From IMG/VR virus record IMGVR_UViG_3300038696_000313, positions 1-23,048 of that record: a DNA stretch of 23,048 bases; one strand, given 5' to 3'. The translations under genes were made by a program, and so were the position numbers. The notes below the pieces were generated by a model. That model saw only the letters and a list, made by a program, of their open reading frames with translations, searched no databases and was not told the DNA's origin. Below are positions 939 to 9,575 of this stretch, in pieces (positions within the stretch are counted from its first letter, which is position 1; every line of letters begins with the position of its first letter). Source of the DNA: a virus.

Positions 939-1696
939 TGCTGGATTTCAACCCACGCCCCTCCATGGCCGACCGGATCAACGCGCTGGTCGACGCGGCC
1001 CTCATCGCTGAGCGCGAGGCCACGCCACCCCGGACCTATCTCGGCGCGTCCCGCCTGGGGCATGCTTGCGAACGCGCGCTGCAGTTCGAGTTTGCCGGTG
1101 CGCCCAAGGATGAGGGTGCGGATTTCGGCGGGCAGACGTTGCGAATCTTTGCCATCGGCCACCAGCTCGAGGATCTCGCGATCCGCTGGCTGCGCGCGGC
1201 CGGGATCGATCTGGTGACCCAAAAGCGGGATGGCGGCCAGTTCGGTTTCTCGGTCGCAGGCGGTCGTATCCGGGGCCATGTCGACGGGATCATCGCCGAT
1301 GCCCCGGCAGCGCTCGGCATGCGCGCGCCCGCGCTGTGGGAATGCAAGACCATGAACGCCAAGAACTGGCGCGCCTGCGTCAAGGACGGGGTCACGGTGT
1401 CCAAGCCCGTCTACGCCGCGCAGATCGCGATCTATCAAGCCTACATGGAGCCCTCGGTGCCAGGGATTTCGGCGGCACCGGCGCTGTTCACCGCTATCAA
1501 CAAGGATACGGCCGAGCTGCACCATGAGTTGGTGCCGTTCGACGCCGATCTCGCGCAGCGCATGTCTGACCGCGCCGTTCGAATCCTGCAGGCCACCGAC
1601 GCGGGCGAGTTGCCGCCCCGCATCGCCGCCAACCGCGATTTCTACGAATGCCGTTTCTGCGCACATGCCGAGCGGTGTTGGGGGCTGGCCACATGA
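938..1696 (+). CDS. PD-(D/E)XK nuclease family protein with Cas4/AddB-like Fe-S cysteines
   Basis: This 252-residue protein starts at an ATG that overlaps the preceding TGA. The PD-(D/E)XK core can be read: a GH around residue 75, a GHVDG segment with D116, and the E-x-K of WECKT (E135, K137), which are the metal-binding and catalytic positions of this fold. C44 near the N-terminus and C238, C241 and C247 at the C-terminus form the split cysteine set that binds a 4Fe-4S cluster in Cas4 and AddB nucleases. The likely role is an exonuclease or end-processing enzyme in phage replication or recombination. No CRISPR array or other cas gene is visible, so it should not be called Cas4. Its end overlaps the next gene by ATGA. 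Confidence 0.8.
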   Translation: MLDFNPRPSMADRINALVDAALIAEREATPPRTYLGASRLGHACERALQFEFAGAPKDEGADFGGQTLRIFAIGHQLEDLAIRWLRAAGIDLVTQKRDGGQFGFSVAGGRIRGHVDGIIADAPAALGMRAPALWECKTMNAKNWRACVKDGVTVSKPVYAAQIAIYQAYMEPSVPGISAAPALFTAINKDTAELHHELVPFDADLAQRMSDRAVRILQATDAGELPPRIAANRDFYECRFCAHAERCWGLAT

Positions 1697-4086
1697 CCGA
1701 TGAGCCCACCGACCCATCCAACCCCGAGCAGGACCCGGCCATGCGCGATGACACGACGCCCGATGTACCCCCGACGCCAGATGCACCCAAGGAAAACATC
1801 GTCCATTTCAATCCGTGGCGGGACTTCAATGACGCCGCGCCGCAGATCGACGTCTTTGGCGACGAGCCGGACCCTGCGCAGATCGCGCAATTCATGCAGG
1901 TTGTCTTCGGCTATTGCGACGGGCTGATCCCGGTCCGCAGTTTCATCGACAAGGGCCAAGGCATCGATGGCCGCCCGCATAACATCTGGCTCGAAGCAGA
2001 TCAGGCCGCGCCCGAAAAGATGGCGACCTTCGCCACATGGGCCTCGCGTGAGGGCGCAGCCGTCTACGTGATCCCCGGCACCGTGGCCGCGCCCGGTCAG
2101 GCCAAGGCGGCAGAAATCCTGCAGATGCAGACCGTCGTCGTTGATCTCGACACCGGCGACATTGCCGCCAAGCGGGCCCATCTGGAGCGCCATCTTGGTG
2201 CGCCGACCATGGTGGTGGAAAGCGGTGGCGTGACGCCGGAGGGCCAGCGGAAAGCCCATGTCTGGTGGGCGCTGACCGAGCCTGCCGAGGGCGCAGACAT
2301 CGCCCGTGTCTGCCGTCTGCGCGGTGACATCGCGGCAAAGGTCGGCGGCGACATGCATTTCCGCTCCGCTCACCAGCCGATCCGCGTGGCAGGCTCTGTC
2401 TATTACAAGAACAGCCTGAAAACGCAGGTCCGGATCGTCGAACTGAACGTCGACCGCGAGCGCGATCTGGCCGAGTTCATCGAAGCCGTGATCGACATGC
2501 CGCCCGCGCCGGGGGTGTCCCTGCAGCCCGAATTCACCCATCCCGACAAGCCCGCCATGGACGATGTGCTGGTCACGCCGGTGCGCGAGGGGGCGCAGGA
2601 CGATTGGTCCCGCTTCGAGGGTGCGTCGGCCGCGATCGGCCATTTCATCCGCATGGTCCACGAGGGTCGGATGACCAAGGACGAGGGCTGGGAAGGCATC
2701 TGCGGCTACAACGCCGCGATGCTGCGGCCGCAATGGCCGGTTGATCGGCTCAAGCGCGAGTCCGAGCGGCTCTGGGAGCGGCATGTCGAGAAATACGGAC
2801 CGCCCTTGGTTCGGCTGAATTCCGGCGCACCGGGCCCGCAGGAGATGCCTGCATTTACGCTCGGCACGCTGCTGGACGACCAGAGCCCGATGCCGGAGGA
2901 CATCATTGCGCCGCGCGTGCTGACCCCCGGCGGGCTGCTGGTGCTGGGCGGCGCGCCCAAGGTCGGCAAGAGCGATCTGCTGATCTCCTGGCTCGTTCAC
3001 ATGGCGGCAGGTGTGCCGTTTCTTGGCTTCACCCCGCCGCGCCCACTGCGGATTTTCTATCTGCAGGCTGAAATCCAGTATCATTATCTGCGCGAACGCC
3101 TGAAGCAGATTGCGCTCCCGCCTGAGGTTCTGGCTGCCGCGCGCGACACCTTCGTCGCCACGCCAAAGCTGAAAATGTTGCTCGACACCGAGGGTAGCAT
3201 GCGGGTTGCCCGGGCTGTCCAGACTGCTTTTCCTGATGCGCCAGTGGACATCATCTGCGTCGACCCGATCCGGAACCTGTTTGACGGCGGGCCCGATGGC
3301 GGCGGCGAAAATGACAACACCGCCATGATGTTCTTCCTGAAGGAACGGGTGGAGGTTCTGCGTGACCATATCGACCCCGACTGCGGGGTGATCCTGATCC
3401 ATCACACCAAGAAGCTTTCGAAGCAGCAGGTGAAGGACGATCCCTTCCTCGCGCTTTCCGGTGCCAGCGCACTTCGCGGGTTCTACACCTCCGGCCTGAT
3501 CCTGCATCGCCCCGACGAGGATTGCTCGCAACGAAAGCTGGAAATCGAGCTGCGTAACGGTCCGGCATTGCCCGCAAAGCTGATCGACAAGGTCGGCGGC
3601 CAATGGGTCGAGATCAACCCGATGAACGAGCGGCTGGTTCGCCAGGAGGTAGGGGCCAGGCATGATGCCGAGCGGGACCGCAAGGGAGGTGTGATCGTCA
3701 ACATGATCGCCCAGCAGGCCGATCAGGGCAGGATGTTCACACCGAGCCAGTTCGCCGCGAAGTTCGAGAACCGGGGCAGTCTCGGCGGACAGACAGGCAT
3801 CCGCCAACGGATCCATGTTCTCGCCACCAAGGGCCATGTGAAGTTCGTGCGAGGCGACCCGGCTGGCGATCTGGGTCTCAAGCGGGATCGCTCGAAGTTC
3901 GGCTATCTCTGCGTCCGGGACATGCATCTGCGCACCGATACCGAGGTCATCGACGAAGAGACCGGTGAGGTCTCCCCGGCCTTTGCCCGGGTGCTGCCGA
4001 CCGACTTCATGTGCCCTCAGACCGGGGTGCTCCTGCCGGTCGAGAATCCGGAAATCTGGGTCGATCAGGACGAGGTCGAGGCATGA
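1693..4086 (+). CDS. Primase-helicase: AEP/RepB-like primase domain plus RecA-like ATPase
   Basis: A 797-residue protein starts at the ATG of an ATGA overlap with the nuclease gene; an upstream in-frame ATG at 1648 lies inside that gene and is rejected. The N-terminal third carries a DLD pair at D151/D153 (VVVDLDTGD), then SGG and HVWW segments and a later basic AGSVYYKN segment, in the order seen in archaeo-eukaryotic-type (RepB-like) primases. The C-terminal half has a RecA-fold ATPase: Walker A GGAPKVGKS at 419-427, Walker B ending at D524 (DIICVD), and an ILIHHTKK segment around H570-H571 typical of AAA_25/RepA hexameric helicases. It probably unwinds and primes phage DNA at the origin. 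The adjacent repeat array at 4111-4314 fits this role. The assignment of the primase half is less certain than the ATPase half. Confidence 0.8.
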   Translation: MTDEPTDPSNPEQDPAMRDDTTPDVPPTPDAPKENIVHFNPWRDFNDAAPQIDVFGDEPDPAQIAQFMQVVFGYCDGLIPVRSFIDKGQGIDGRPHNIWLEADQAAPEKMATFATWASREGAAVYVIPGTVAAPGQAKAAEILQMQTVVVDLDTGDIAAKRAHLERHLGAPTMVVESGGVTPEGQRKAHVWWALTEPAEGADIARVCRLRGDIAAKVGGDMHFRSAHQPIRVAGSVYYKNSLKTQVRIVELNVDRERDLAEFIEAVIDMPPAPGVSLQPEFTHPDKPAMDDVLVTPVREGAQDDWSRFEGASAAIGHFIRMVHEGRMTKDEGWEGICGYNAAMLRPQWPVDRLKRESERLWERHVEKYGPPLVRLNSGAPGPQEMPAFTLGTLLDDQSPMPEDIIAPRVLTPGGLLVLGGAPKVGKSDLLISWLVHMAAGVPFLGFTPPRPLRIFYLQAEIQYHYLRERLKQIALPPEVLAAARDTFVATPKLKMLLDTEGSMRVARAVQTAFPDAPVDIICVDPIRNLFDGGPDGGGENDNTAMMFFLKERVEVLRDHIDPDCGVILIHHTKKLSKQQVKDDPFLALSGASALRGFYTSGLILHRPDEDCSQRKLEIELRNGPALPAKLIDKVGGQWVEINPMNERLVRQEVGARHDAERDRKGGVIVNMIAQQADQGRMFTPSQFAAKFENRGSLGGQTGIRQRIHVLATKGHVKFVRGDPAGDLGLKRDRSKFGYLCVRDMHLRTDTEVIDEETGEVSPAFARVLPTDFMCPQTGVLLPVENPEIWVDQDEVEA

Positions 4087-4110
4087 TGTCAGCGTCCGAA
4101 ACACCCTCAT

Positions 4111-5672: not shown

Positions 5673-6073
5673 CAGAATTTTTGGAGAGACATCGCAACGG
5701 GTTACAGTTTCCGGCTGAGAGGCTACAAATTGGATATACTCGGGAGAGGAGCGCGCAGGCAGAGGCCTCGCAGCTGGCTTCCGGGGTCCAGCGAAGGATC
5801 CAACCGGAGTCCAATCGGCTAAACCATTGAATTCTTGGTTCCTTCTGGGCGACTTTCGTATGCTGGCGGGCGAAGCGCGCAATATCGCCAGCGACAGGGC
5901 CGGTTTTTTGGGAAGCCACCCCGGCGGGCATCCACCCGCGACCTGCTGAAAACCACAACAAAACAAACTTTTGGAGCCGGACACCCCGGCGGCCGCTGGA
6001 CCCTTTGCGGAGTCCAGGCTGGCGGCCGGTGTCCGGAGTCCAGGGGTCCACCCCATTGAGGCGAACCGACATC
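5673..6073. promoter_or_regulatory. Noncoding gap with GGRGTCCA repeats and a long inverted repeat
   Basis: No convincing gene lies here. The motif GG(A/G)GTCCA occurs five times on +: 5783-5790, 5806-5813, 6009-6016, 6035-6042 and 6043-6050, with a reverse copy around 5997-6003. An imperfect inverted repeat pairs CCGGACACC (5977-5985) with GGTGTCCGG (6028-6036) and, inside it, CTGGAC (5996-6001) with GTCCAG (6012-6017). A smaller one pairs 5862-5868 with 5886-5892. A -10-like TATACT sits at 5735-5740 without a clear -35. The arrangement just upstream of a methyltransferase gene suggests operator or promoter elements, but none is proven. Confidence 0.4.
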
Positions 6074-7450
6074 ATGACGCTGAGCTTTGCCCCGGACGCG
6101 ATTGAGACCTGGCCGCTGGCCAAGCTCCAGCCCTACGCGAAGAACGCCAAGGCGCATGGCGCAGATCAGGTTGCGAAGATCGCCGCCAGCATGGCCGAGT
6201 TCGGCTGGACCGTGCCTTGCCTCGTGGCCGAGGACGGAGAGTTGATAGCGGGCCATGGCCGGGTGCTGGCCGCGATGCAGCTCGGACTGACCGAAGCGCC
6301 GGTGATCGTGCTCGGGCATCTGACCGAGGCGCAGCGGCGGGCCTACCGGATCGCCGACAACAAGCTGACCGAACTCGGCACCTGGGACGAGGCGCTGCTG
6401 TCGGCCGAACTGAACGATTTGCTGGCCGAGGATTTCGACCTGTCGTTGGTCGGCTTCTCTGACGGTGAGTTGGACAAGCTGCTGGCCTACGTGCCGGAGG
6501 GGGACGGCGAAGAAGGGGGCACCGGGGGCTCCGTGCCGCCGGTGACCATCCCCGAGCCGCCGCGCAACCCTGCCTCGCGGACCGGCGATCTGTGGATCCT
6601 CGGCGATCATCGGTTGCTGTGCGGTGACAGCACCAGCGCCAATGATGTGCGCCGTCTGATGAATGGCGAGCGGGCGATCCTGTTTGCGACCGACCCGCCG
6701 TATCTGGTCGATTACGACGGTTCGAACCATCCGACGCGCAATAAGGATTGGTCGGCGTCCTATGGCACGACCTGGGACGACAGTTCGCAGGGGGCCGAAC
6801 TTTACGACGGCTTCATCGCGGCCGCCGTCGCGGAAGCCATCGCCGAAAATGCAGCCTGGTATTGCTGGCACGCCTCGCGCCGCCAGGCGATGCTGGAGGC
6901 CTGTTGGGAAAAGGTCGGGGCCTTCGTCCATCAGCAGATCATCTGGGTGAAGGACCGCGGGGTTCTCACCAGATCGCATTACCTCTGGAAGCACGAGCCC
7001 TGCTTCATGGGCTGGCGCCGCCCGAACCGCCCGCCAAAGGTGGCAGAAGAAACTCTTCCGTCGACATGGGCGCTGCCCAGTTTCGCAAAGGATGACCGTC
7101 CGGACCATCCGACACCGAAGCCGCTGGACTCCTTCGGGATCCCGATGCGCCAGCATGTGGCGCGGGGCGGGCTTTGCTATGAGCCGTTCTGTGGTTCGGG
7201 TTCGCAGATCATGGCGGGCGAGGCCAATGGCCGCCGCGTCTTCGCGATGGAGATCAGCCCGGCGTACATCGACGTGGCCGTGGAGCGCTGGCAGGCCGAC
7301 ACCGGTCGCGAGGCGATCCTCGACGGCGATGGCCGGACCTTCGCGGCCGTGAAAGCTGAACGGCTGGGCGACGACGCCGAAGACCCGGCCGAAACGCCGG
7401 ACGCAAAAGCCGATCCCGAACCGACCCGCAAACGCAAATCCGCAGCCTGA
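6074..7450 (+). CDS. ParB-like nuclease domain / DNA methyltransferase fusion (N6-adenine or N4-cytosine)
   Basis: A 458-residue protein. Residues about 10-110 form a ParB/Srx-like N-terminal domain, with the signature IAGHGR at 58-63 and a following RIADNKLTELG segment. The methyltransferase domain has the catalytic DPPY at 207-210 and the SAM-binding FCGSGS at 372-377. DPPY before FxGxG is the beta-class order shared by N6-adenine and N4-cytosine enzymes. The protein probably methylates phage DNA to evade host restriction or to control its own genes; the ParB domain may contribute DNA binding. The C-terminal tail is charged and probably disordered. I chose the ATG at 6074 because upstream in-frame codons (TTG at 6005) fall in the inverted repeat. 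Ribosome site is weak. No partner restriction enzyme is visible. Confidence 0.85.
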   Translation: MTLSFAPDAIETWPLAKLQPYAKNAKAHGADQVAKIAASMAEFGWTVPCLVAEDGELIAGHGRVLAAMQLGLTEAPVIVLGHLTEAQRRAYRIADNKLTELGTWDEALLSAELNDLLAEDFDLSLVGFSDGELDKLLAYVPEGDGEEGGTGGSVPPVTIPEPPRNPASRTGDLWILGDHRLLCGDSTSANDVRRLMNGERAILFATDPPYLVDYDGSNHPTRNKDWSASYGTTWDDSSQGAELYDGFIAAAVAEAIAENAAWYCWHASRRQAMLEACWEKVGAFVHQQIIWVKDRGVLTRSHYLWKHEPCFMGWRRPNRPPKVAEETLPSTWALPSFAKDDRPDHPTPKPLDSFGIPMRQHVARGGLCYEPFCGSGSQIMAGEANGRRVFAMEISPAYIDVAVERWQADTGREAILDGDGRTFAAVKAERLGDDAEDPAETPDAKADPEPTRKRKSAA

Positions 7451-7453
7451 GGT

Positions 7454-8635
7454 ATGCATGACCTGGCTTTACATCCCTCCGGAGGCGATTCCGGAACCCC
7501 AGACGCATGCCTCTTCGGCCTGTCCCTTTGCTCTGGCGCAGGCGGGCTCGACCTCGGGCTTGCCATCGCCATCCCCGGATATCGTGCTGTGGGCCATGTC
7601 GAACGGGAAACCTTCGCCGCAGCCACTCTCGTGGCGCGGATGGAAGACGCGGCCTTGGATCGCGTGCCTGTCTGGGACGACGTTGCCAGCTTCGACGGCC
7701 GCCCATGGCGCGGCGCGGTGGACATCGTCACTGCGGGTTATCCGTGCCAACCGTTCTCCATTGCAGGCCGACGGCTCGGCAGCGAAGACCCGCGCCACCT
7801 CTGGCCGCATGTCGCGCGCATCATTGGCGAGGTTGAGCCGCCCTTCGTCTTCCTCGAGAATGTCGCCAATCATCTCCGTCTTGGCTTCCCCGAAGTCGCC
7901 GGAGGGCTGGTCGGCATGGGCTACAAGCTTGCGGCAGGTCTCTTCACTGCGGCGGAAGTCGGCGCGCCCCACAAGCGCGAGCGGCTCTTCATCCTCGCCA
8001 TCCGCGAGGGGGACGAGCTGGCCGACCCCGCGCGCCTGCTCTGGAACCCGGTCGAGTGGCGGGAACCGGACGGAACTGCTGCGGCTGTGGCCGACACCCC
8101 GCGCCAGCGCCAACGAGAACCGGCAGACGAAGCCGACGCCGTCGCAGGAAGCGGGCCAGCACGGGATGAACCTGGCGACGACCGCCGCGATGTGGCCGAC
8201 GCCGCAGATCGACAGTTTCCGCAGCCGGGGTGGCGAGCGGCGCGAAGAGAAGGGTCTGGACCGGATGGCGCGGGACTGGCCAACGCCGATGGCGAACGAC
8301 GGCTGCAAGCCGAGCGCGGGCAACCGCAAGACGGCCGACCTGACCCATGTGGCGGGAATGTGGATGACGCCGACGGCGCGGGATCACAAGGATGGGGCGA
8401 CGACATTGGAGAACACGCCAGTCAACGGCCTGCTTGGCCGCCAGGTCCTGGTGATGAAGGTGGCTGGGAGCGATACCTCCGAGCCGCGCCGGACCTTGAA
8501 CCCGCTGTTCGTCGAGGCGCTGATGGGCTGGCCCACCGGGTGGACCGGCTTCGCCTCTGTGGCAACGGGGTGGTGCCACTGGTTGCAGCGCATGCGCTGC
8601 GAACTTTGGCGGCTGAACTGCTGGCCGATGGATGA
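7454..8635 (+). CDS. DNA (cytosine-5-)-methyltransferase
   Basis: A 393-residue protein starts 3 nt after the previous stop. C5-methyltransferase motifs are clear: motif I LSLCSGAGGLDLG at 23-35, motif IV GYPCQPFS with catalytic C98, an ENV motif (VI), and KRERLFI (VIII). Near the C-terminus a RADGLAHRVDRLRLCGNGVVP-type stretch represents motifs IX-X. The reaction is transfer of a methyl group to C5 of cytosine in a specific site. The region between motifs VIII and IX, where the target-recognition domain should lie, is a low-complexity D/A/G/R/Q-rich stretch with repeated V/L-A-D/N-x units (near 8017, 8087, 8192, 8276 and 8360). These coincide with WPTP units in the overlapping frame. The start is close to the only GAGG (7449-7452), giving it a poor 1-nt spacing. 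Confidence 0.85.
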   Translation: MHDLALHPSGGDSGTPDACLFGLSLCSGAGGLDLGLAIAIPGYRAVGHVERETFAAATLVARMEDAALDRVPVWDDVASFDGRPWRGAVDIVTAGYPCQPFSIAGRRLGSEDPRHLWPHVARIIGEVEPPFVFLENVANHLRLGFPEVAGGLVGMGYKLAAGLFTAAEVGAPHKRERLFILAIREGDELADPARLLWNPVEWREPDGTAAAVADTPRQRQREPADEADAVAGSGPARDEPGDDRRDVADAADRQFPQPGWRAARREGSGPDGAGLANADGERRLQAERGQPQDGRPDPCGGNVDDADGAGSQGWGDDIGEHASQRPAWPPGPGDEGGWERYLRAAPDLEPAVRRGADGLAHRVDRLRLCGNGVVPLVAAHALRTLAAELLADG

Positions 8636-8648
8636 GGTGGCGGGATGA
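7458..8648 (+). CDS. Overlapping WPTP-repeat phage protein, overprinted on the cytosine methyltransferase gene
   Basis: A second frame, open for 396 codons, covers nearly all of the methyltransferase gene. It reads MTWLYIPPEA at the start, a WTSSLRVIRANRS segment over motif IV, WPTP or W-x-TP units at 8019, 8088, 8193, 8277 and 8361, and ends with LNPLFVEALMGWPTGWTGF. From memory, these features (MTWL start, SSLR-x-ASRS-like segment, repeated WPTP, LNPxFVEWLMGWPxGWT tail) belong to phage proteins often listed beside methyltransferases. Two local facts favour translation: GAGG at 7449-7452 has a 5-nt spacing to this ATG, and its TGA overlaps the next gene's ATG at 8645-8648 (ATGA), the junction style of this operon. 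Function unknown. Translation may also begin internally, for example at 8166. Long open frames are common in GC-rich DNA, so confidence is moderate. Confidence 0.5.
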   Translation: MTWLYIPPEAIPEPQTHASSACPFALAQAGSTSGLPSPSPDIVLWAMSNGKPSPQPLSWRGWKTRPWIACLSGTTLPASTAAHGAARWTSSLRVIRANRSPLQADGSAAKTRATSGRMSRASLARLSRPSSSSRMSPIISVLASPKSPEGWSAWATSLRQVSSLRRKSARPTSASGSSSSPSARGTSWPTPRACSGTRSSGGNRTELLRLWPTPRASANENRQTKPTPSQEAGQHGMNLATTAAMWPTPQIDSFRSRGGERREEKGLDRMARDWPTPMANDGCKPSAGNRKTADLTHVAGMWMTPTARDHKDGATTLENTPVNGLLGRQVLVMKVAGSDTSEPRRTLNPLFVEALMGWPTGWTGFASVATGWCHWLQRMRCELWRLNCWPMDEVAG

Positions 8649-8866
8649 AGCAATCGCGCGCCATGTCGCTGGTCGAAGCCGTCACCAATGTGGTTGTGGG
8701 CTACGGCGTTGCGGTCGTCACGCAGATCCTGATCTTCCCGATCTTCGGGCTCCACACGACGCTGGCCCAGAACCTGAAGATGGGCGCCATCTTCACCATC
8801 GTGTCGATCGGTCGGTCGTTCGCCTTGCGGCGGCTGTTCGAGACGATCCGGGCACGGAGATCTTGA
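8645..8866 (+). CDS. DUF7220-like small membrane protein
   Basis: A 73-residue protein whose ATG overlaps the stop of the WPTP frame. It has two hydrophobic segments, about residues 12-33 (VTNVVVGYGVAVVTQILIFPIF) and 45-58, separated by a short loop and followed by a basic end (RLFETIRARRS). It matches my recollection of the MKQSR-start DUF7220 family that sits beside methyltransferase genes in alphaproteobacterial phages. It is likely an inner-membrane protein with its basic tail in the cytoplasm. The role is unknown; holin-like activity cannot be excluded from size and two helices, but no lysis genes are seen nearby. Confidence 0.6.
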   Translation: MKQSRAMSLVEAVTNVVVGYGVAVVTQILIFPIFGLHTTLAQNLKMGAIFTIVSIGRSFALRRLFETIRARRS

Positions 8867-8945: not shown

Positions 8946-9575
8946 ATGGCAGGTGGACAGGATCACTGGGACGAGGTCTACGGCGCGCGCTCGGAAGATG
9001 AACTGACATGGTTCGAAGCGACGCCGTCAGTGTCGCTCGATCTCGTCCGAACCCATCTTCATCCCGGCGAAGCGTTCATCGACATCGGCGCTGGCGCGTC
9101 GCGGCTCATGGACGCGCTGCTCGAGGCGGGTCTCGGCCCTCTCACTGTACTTGATCTTTCCGGGGCTGCGTTGGCTGTCAGCAGGCGACGTCTCGGCCCT
9201 AAATGTAGCAACGTGACATGGATCGAAGCGGACATCGCGACGTGGGTGCCTGAACGGGACTATGCGGTCTGGCACGACCGCGCGGTGTTTCATTTTCTCA
9301 TCCGGGCCGAGGATCGCGCCGGTTACGCGCGCGCGATGTCCGAGGCCCTCCGTCCGGGTGGAATCGCGATCATCGCAACCTTCGCCGATGACGGGCCCGA
9401 AAAGTGCTCGGGGTTGCCGATTGCGCGCTACGCGCCGGAGGATCTGGCGCGGGAACTCGCGCGTCTGCTGCCGGGCCAGTTCGAGACCATCGATGCCAGA
9501 CGACACATGCACGTCACGCCGAAGGGTAACCGGCAGAGCTTTCAGTACAGCGTGTTTCGGAAGGCGGTCCCCTGA
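8946..9575 (+). CDS. Class I SAM-dependent methyltransferase (accessory gene)
   Basis: A 209-residue protein with a HWDEVYGARSEDELTWFE opening and the SAM-binding glycine motif DIGAGAS at 46-52, followed by LDLSG for the acidic post-I position. WHDRAVFHF lies in the expected substrate-side strand, and LRPGG is typical of the small-molecule or protein methyltransferase fold. The substrate cannot be told from sequence. GGGGAGG at 8928-8934 is the ribosome site. The gene is separated from the replication operon by 79 bp, has no coupling to its neighbours and resembles chromosomal bacterial genes more than phage core genes, so it looks like an acquired accessory gene. Confidence 0.75.
   Translation: MAGGQDHWDEVYGARSEDELTWFEATPSVSLDLVRTHLHPGEAFIDIGAGASRLMDALLEAGLGPLTVLDLSGAALAVSRRRLGPKCSNVTWIEADIATWVPERDYAVWHDRAVFHFLIRAEDRAGYARAMSEALRPGGIAIIATFADDGPEKCSGLPIARYAPEDLARELARLLPGQFETIDARRHMHVTPKGNRQSFQYSVFRKAVP

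Follow-up and report, generated by a model that had tools for sequence, protein, structure and literature searches.

Does the second of two almost completely overlapping reading frames in a viral cytosine methyltransferase gene encode a protein of its own, and what would that protein do? The question is raised by a viral record in IMG/VR, 23,048 bases long, that carries terminase, portal and capsid genes and that was taken as a single stretch of DNA (hereafter, the window). The initial annotation had placed two frames on its plus strand with starts 4 nt apart, and these coordinates are correct (7454-8635 and 7458-8648; hereafter, alpha and beta, respectively). The features of the locus are:

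7449..7460, plus strand: dual start ATGCATG, with the alpha ATG at 7454 and the beta ATG at 7458; the stop of the upstream gene directly precedes it.
7454..8635, plus strand: alpha ORF of 393 aa with an ATG start; a C5 cytosine methyltransferase that carries motifs I-VIII and X.
7458..8648, plus strand: beta ORF, ATG start, 396 aa, in the +1 frame relative to alpha.
7514..8015, plus strand: catalytic domain of alpha with motifs I-VIII; selection acts on the alpha frame, and beta is neutral.
8019..8493, plus strand: recognition region of beta, containing the W-x-TP units; selection acts on the beta frame, and the alpha frame, though open, is neutral.
8496..8546, plus strand: beta motif IX, LNPLFVEALMGWPTGWT, overprinting the conserved alpha residues EPAVRRGADGLAHRVDR that precede motif X; both frames constrained.
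8551..8632, plus strand: alpha motif X, RLCGNGVVPLVAAHALRTL; alpha-frame selection.
8645..8866, plus strand: next gene, 73 aa; its ATG overlaps the beta stop (ATGA, 8645-8648).

Both start codons are kept in 67/67 homologs, and the ATGA junction at which the beta stop meets the next gene, pointed out earlier in the window, lies in the same place or within 3 nt in 93 of 102 homologs. The better Shine-Dalgarno (SD) spacing ascribed to beta is real in the window, where GAGG at 7449-7452 precedes the beta ATG by 5 nt and the alpha ATG by 1 nt. It is not general, however, given that most relatives have CGTGACATGCATGACCTGG at this place, without such an SD. PF01555, an N6/N4 methyltransferase domain, is present in the gene directly upstream (6005-7450), and downstream, at 8946-9575, lies a SAM-dependent methyltransferase (PF13649), such that 3 methyltransferase-type genes lie within a 3.6-kb part of the window.

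The identification of the first frame as a C5 methyltransferase holds. Alpha matches Pfam PF00145 in residues 23-190 alone (E = 2.4e-30), phrog_363 (E = 3.7e-58) and M.HhaI (E = 5.9e-13, residues 90-185), and contains motifs I-VIII of these enzymes, including the AdoMet site, PCQ and ENV. Motif X (GNGVVP) is present as well and was aligned across seven diverse alphas. The target-recognition domain and motif IX are not in the alpha chain, which has a non-conserved linker of about 160 residues in place of that domain; they are encoded in the +1 frame, and alpha is neutral over 8016-8493.

Searched separately, beta matches a different family, phrog_1008 (E = 1.2e-17), and gives no match in Pfam or NCBIfam and none in a PDB profile search; an AlphaFold2 model of beta alone (pLDDT 57, pTM 0.26) is too low in confidence for a fold search. 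Beta consists of a non-conserved N-terminal half, the WPTP recognition region and motif IX. The five W-x-TP units and the LNPLFVEALMGWPTGWT end described initially are all present (WPTP at 8019, 8088, 8193 and 8277, and WMTP at 8361), as are the A-D-type residues opposite these units in alpha (LAD, VAD, VAD, LAN and VDD). We place the probable beta start at 7458 because its ATG is invariant among the homologs and because 52 of 95 diverse betas begin with M-x-W-L/I-Y/I; the placement rests on the conserved ATG and the open frame, and the N-terminal half behind it is free of amino-acid selection (observed/expected 1.11, see below). The M-x-W-L/I-Y/I start is common to very different betas even though the remaining N-terminal half is unconstrained.

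To measure selection in each frame, we compared the observed nonsynonymous change with that expected if the same changes were placed at random (obs/exp) in 92 homologs, namely, viral homologs plus added host-genome loci. At 7458-8015, obs/exp was 0.57 in alpha and 1.11 in beta; at 8016-8493, it was 0.52 in beta and 1.13 in alpha; and at 8551-8632, motif X, it was 0.21 in alpha, the strongest selection in the gene, and 0.95 in beta. Accordingly placed is the variable codon position, which is the alpha third position over the catalytic part, the beta third position from 8018 to about 8480, and the alpha third position again at motif X; a sliding position spectrum shows that the switch of the selected frame is abrupt, at 8017/8018. 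Between these segments, the approximately 57 nt at 8494-8550 accumulated 0.014 changes per site vs. 0.09-0.12 elsewhere, with obs/exp of 0.43 in beta and 0.84 in alpha. Elsewhere among the clusters, divergence of the recognition region is fast, while in motif IX the beta-frame signature stays clear (ratio of third to second positions, 2.4-15). Purifying selection thus acts on one frame at a time, with double constraint only around motif IX. The second frame does code for a conserved product, as had been proposed; the idea of a dual-coded target domain stands only for the doubly constrained 57 nt and fails for the rest, because the target region as read in alpha is not conserved, which leaves most of it coding in a single frame. 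Selection confined to a single frame, a pattern that had been named as evidence against dual coding, is found region by region and not across the whole gene.

Among 71 distinct ungapped viral homologs, alpha and beta are open in 71/71 and the third frame in 0/71. In the set of 92, alpha is open in 90 and beta in 91; a single stop in one frame occurs in 3/92, all of them genome-assembly loci (L414 and L479 in alpha and L465 in beta, at window positions 8435, 8210 and 8277, respectively), and may reflect decay, assembly error or tolerated loss. Loci with an intact methyltransferase and a broken second frame, the other finding that would have counted against the proposal, are therefore limited to 1/92, with 0/71 among the viral homologs.

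Openness of the second frame by itself is weak evidence in this GC-rich contig. Antisense ORFs of 822 aa (1642-4110, minus strand) and 546 aa (5819-7459, minus strand) lie opposite real genes and are open by chance, so that long open frames are cheap here. When the window was shuffled among synonymous codons, beta remained open over the catalytic part in 27% of the shuffles and alpha over the beta part in 7%; because this fixed-segment test takes the ORF limits as given, a test across families was used in its place. In the latter, in which row L001 was misframed, alpha is open across the beta region in 21/23 families vs. 1.9 expected from synonymous shuffles, and the beta frame is open upstream for 3478 codons vs. 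1355 expected (Fisher P = 3e-16). Stop avoidance is thus evident across diverse families, and the overprint exceeds chance given the frame-specific substitution pattern and its recurrence in AT-rich, unrelated phages.

That the arrangement recurs in phages, as had been suggested, is borne out by scans with diverse alpha and beta alignments, which yielded a first set of 233 distinct loci: the motif IX signature lies in the +1 frame, inside an alpha ORF that continues past it, in 206, and in the +2 frame in 0. These loci fall into 31 clusters at 60% identity, of which 21 are overprinted, with GC contents of 35-66%. A scan with the alpha motif PCQ alone as the query (80 loci ranked by similarity to the window, hence not a census) found the overprint in 45/62 loci, and it gave 15 loci below 45% GC with beta ORFs of 245-472 codons; all these architecture counts depend on the motif regular expressions and on sampling ranked by similarity. 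Judging by these sequence signatures, the two-frame arrangement is present in hundreds of bacterial phages, prophages and plasmids; one example is the E. coli prophage copy L333. It also occurs on a single archaeal plasmid, that of Methanomethylovorans hollandica (L495:1329-2129, 35% GC), where the beta frame has 180 codons and ends in LNPVWTEWLMGLPTNWTALK.

Several annotated genomes bear traces of the second frame. In Paenibacillus phage Shelly (L499:1628-2332), the depositors placed a 'g55 internal gene', without a function, inside the methyltransferase gene, and this is presumably the beta frame; in mycobacteriophage Steamy, two overlapping genes are both annotated 'DNA methylase'. In the E. 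coli PCP07014 prophage (L332:2501-3262), separate stops a few bases apart break both frames, and the alpha frame is a pseudogene in RefSeq.

The role of beta is indicated by relatives in which the same parts are joined differently. Gp27 of the Mycobacterium prophage prophiGD91-2 (L167) is a single ORF with the catalytic domain, LPTP repeats, LAPAFSEWMMGWPAGWV and GNGVVPQQA. On this fused enzyme, hhalign places alpha at residues 5-160 (E = 1.3e-37) and beta at residues 194-369 (E = 8.8e-10), with the beta motif IX homologous to LAPAFSEWMMGWPAGWV. The conserved half of beta therefore corresponds by homology to two parts of a single-frame C5 methyltransferase, its recognition region and motif IX, and the second frame indeed sits where the target-recognition domain was expected. 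Gp27 shares with the window the catalytic domain, L/W-PTP repeats, an LxPxFxEWMMGxP motif IX and the GNGVVP motif X; unlike in the window, all the parts are in one frame and one chain. Apart from the fully overprinted form, the same parts occur naturally fused (19) and split with a short overlap and with motif X in the second chain (23). L240:2463-3525 is intermediate, with an alpha catalytic ORF that ends inside beta and a beta that comprises the recognition region, motif IX and motif X. In a tree of the catalytic domain, the forms are strongly clustered (9 changes vs. 20.7 in shuffles), with 13/14 fused rows in one starred group together with 4 split rows.

An AlphaFold2 model of a fused relative (pTM 0.71) is confident in the catalytic part and in motifs IX and X, of low confidence in the recognition/repeat region, and has M.HhaI as its best PDB match (E = 3.6e-16). 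In the alignment behind this model (A4), hhalign against M.HhaI suggested that some beta fragments had been aligned with the LWP stretch in the catalytic domain, so the recognition-region part of A4 is not suited to close reading.

Taken together, the frame-resolved selection, the homology of alpha and beta to the fused enzyme, the stop avoidance and the natural fused and split forms indicate that the locus very probably encodes one two-subunit C5 methyltransferase of the M.EcoHK31I kind, with the subunits translated from starts 4 nt apart. The initial annotation had offered a second protein of unknown role, perhaps a methyltransferase partner or an anti-restriction factor. The homology of the conserved half of beta makes the partner the best reading, and the role need not be left blank; the anti-restriction factor has nothing of its own in its favor. 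Under the two-subunit reading, ribosomes would start at either ATG, likely by coupled re-initiation behind the stop of the upstream gene, because most relatives lack an SD and the starts lie just behind that stop. The product of the alpha frame would be a catalytic subunit (AdoMet binding, PCQ, ENV and motif VIII) that continues through an unconstrained linker into motif X; the product of the beta frame would have an unconstrained N-terminal half, which is tolerated, followed by the W-x-TP recognition region and motif IX. Alpha would stay open across the beta region, despite the drift of its residues, because translation must reach motif X. The two chains would then assemble into one enzyme, as in M.EcoHK31I, that modifies phage DNA and may protect it against host restriction.

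The main rival is a double programmed frameshift, in which ribosomes shift by +1 after motif VIII into beta and back after motif IX, to yield one complete chain. The abruptness of the selection switch at 8017/8018 and the onset of conserved beta residues at the first WPTP are compatible with such shifts, and so is the neutral N-terminal half of beta, which would be expected of a frame read only within a fusion. However, no conserved slippery sequence is found at the switch, where alpha third positions vary up to 8017 and beta third positions from 8018; the openness of alpha across the beta region (21/23 families), the openness of beta upstream and the conserved beta ATG would all be unneeded; and two shifts would be required in one message. 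We consider this explanation unlikely. The same low probability attaches to a broader joint proposition, namely that the overprint is an ancient and common form of phage-borne C5 methyltransferases of bacteria and archaea, that the single-chain enzymes of actinophages may have arisen secondarily by re-fusion, and that the switch reflects ribosomes changing frame twice and thereby making a complete single chain as well.

Less probable still is that beta is a separate factor, for example, an anti-restriction or regulatory protein, that merely shares its DNA with the methyltransferase. The conservation of M-x-WLY at the beta N-terminus in many families, which a recognition module alone does not explain, would fit such a factor, but the conserved half of beta is precisely the part that alpha is missing, and fused or split forms exist in nature. 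Very improbable is a dead or sequencing-damaged single-frame methyltransferase, in which two compensating indels shifted the frame of the recognition region. The parts do match those of the fused enzyme, with the middle in +1, but frame-specific selection conserves the arrangement in 92 distinct homologs and in dozens of divergent families, and the open frames exceed expectation. Local damage or sequencing error as the source of the two frames is refuted by this conservation; an ancient event of the compensating-indel kind is the likely origin of the overprint. A functional alpha with beta as a chance ORF in GC-rich DNA is just as improbable and is refuted by the substitution pattern: even though an open beta is not surprising in the window alone (P of about 0.27 for the N-terminal part), beta is constrained and alpha neutral over 8016-8493, AT-rich phages retain beta, and motif IX is homologous to that of real methyltransferases.

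Two-chain systems of this kind are already known. Lee, Kam and Shaw reportedly described in 1995 that the gene for the small chain of EcoHK31I lies inside the gene for the large chain, in another frame, and the window would resemble M.EcoHK31I in this respect. M.EcoHK31I (YGGCCR) is a two-polypeptide C5 methyltransferase whose large chain carries motifs I-VIII and X, along with a predicted recognition domain, and whose small chain carries motif IX; in M.AquI, the two chains are split after motif VIII, and the second contains the distal variable region, motif IX and motif X (PMC3404938). Compared by published description, the window agrees with M.EcoHK31I in having motifs I-VIII and X in alpha, the counterpart of the large chain, and motif IX only in beta. 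It differs in that selection places the recognition region in the small-chain frame, whereas in M.EcoHK31I it is assigned to the large chain, itself a prediction; moreover, the ORF starts are here 4 nt apart and the overlap is almost full. With M.AquI, the window shares the division after motif VIII and a second chain with the recognition region and motif IX, but not the location of motif X, which is here in alpha; the M.AquI-like partition, with motif X in the small chain, is found in four relatives (L240, L166, L330 and L331).

In the open-licence literature searched, we found no description of overlapping phage methyltransferase frames, and none of the papers mentioning EcoHK31I describes phage overprints; no recognisable restriction-modification pair emerged when a plasmid system resembling EcoHK31I was sought. 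In the PHROG library, families 363 (alpha) and 1008 and 27243 (beta; labeled DNA methyltransferase and unknown, respectively) are without a record that both are overlapping frames of one gene. The prevalence in phages, the frame-resolved selection and the location of the recognition region in beta appear to be new. The claim of a variant beyond the EcoHK31I kind rests on the recognition region being in the small-subunit frame; if the recognition region of EcoHK31I were itself in that frame, the window system would be a plain further member.

As annotated, the C5 methyltransferases of many phages and prophages seem incomplete, because their recognition part and motif IX lie in an overprinted frame for which there is no Pfam or NCBIfam model. 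Recognising the overprint would unite pairs of unrelated-looking phage families as one enzyme and would supply a sequence from which to predict specificity; the annotated frame expressed alone may give an inactive protein. As a large, old and well-sampled pair of overlapping genes in which selection can be read for each frame, these loci would also provide a test bed for the origin and persistence of long overlaps.
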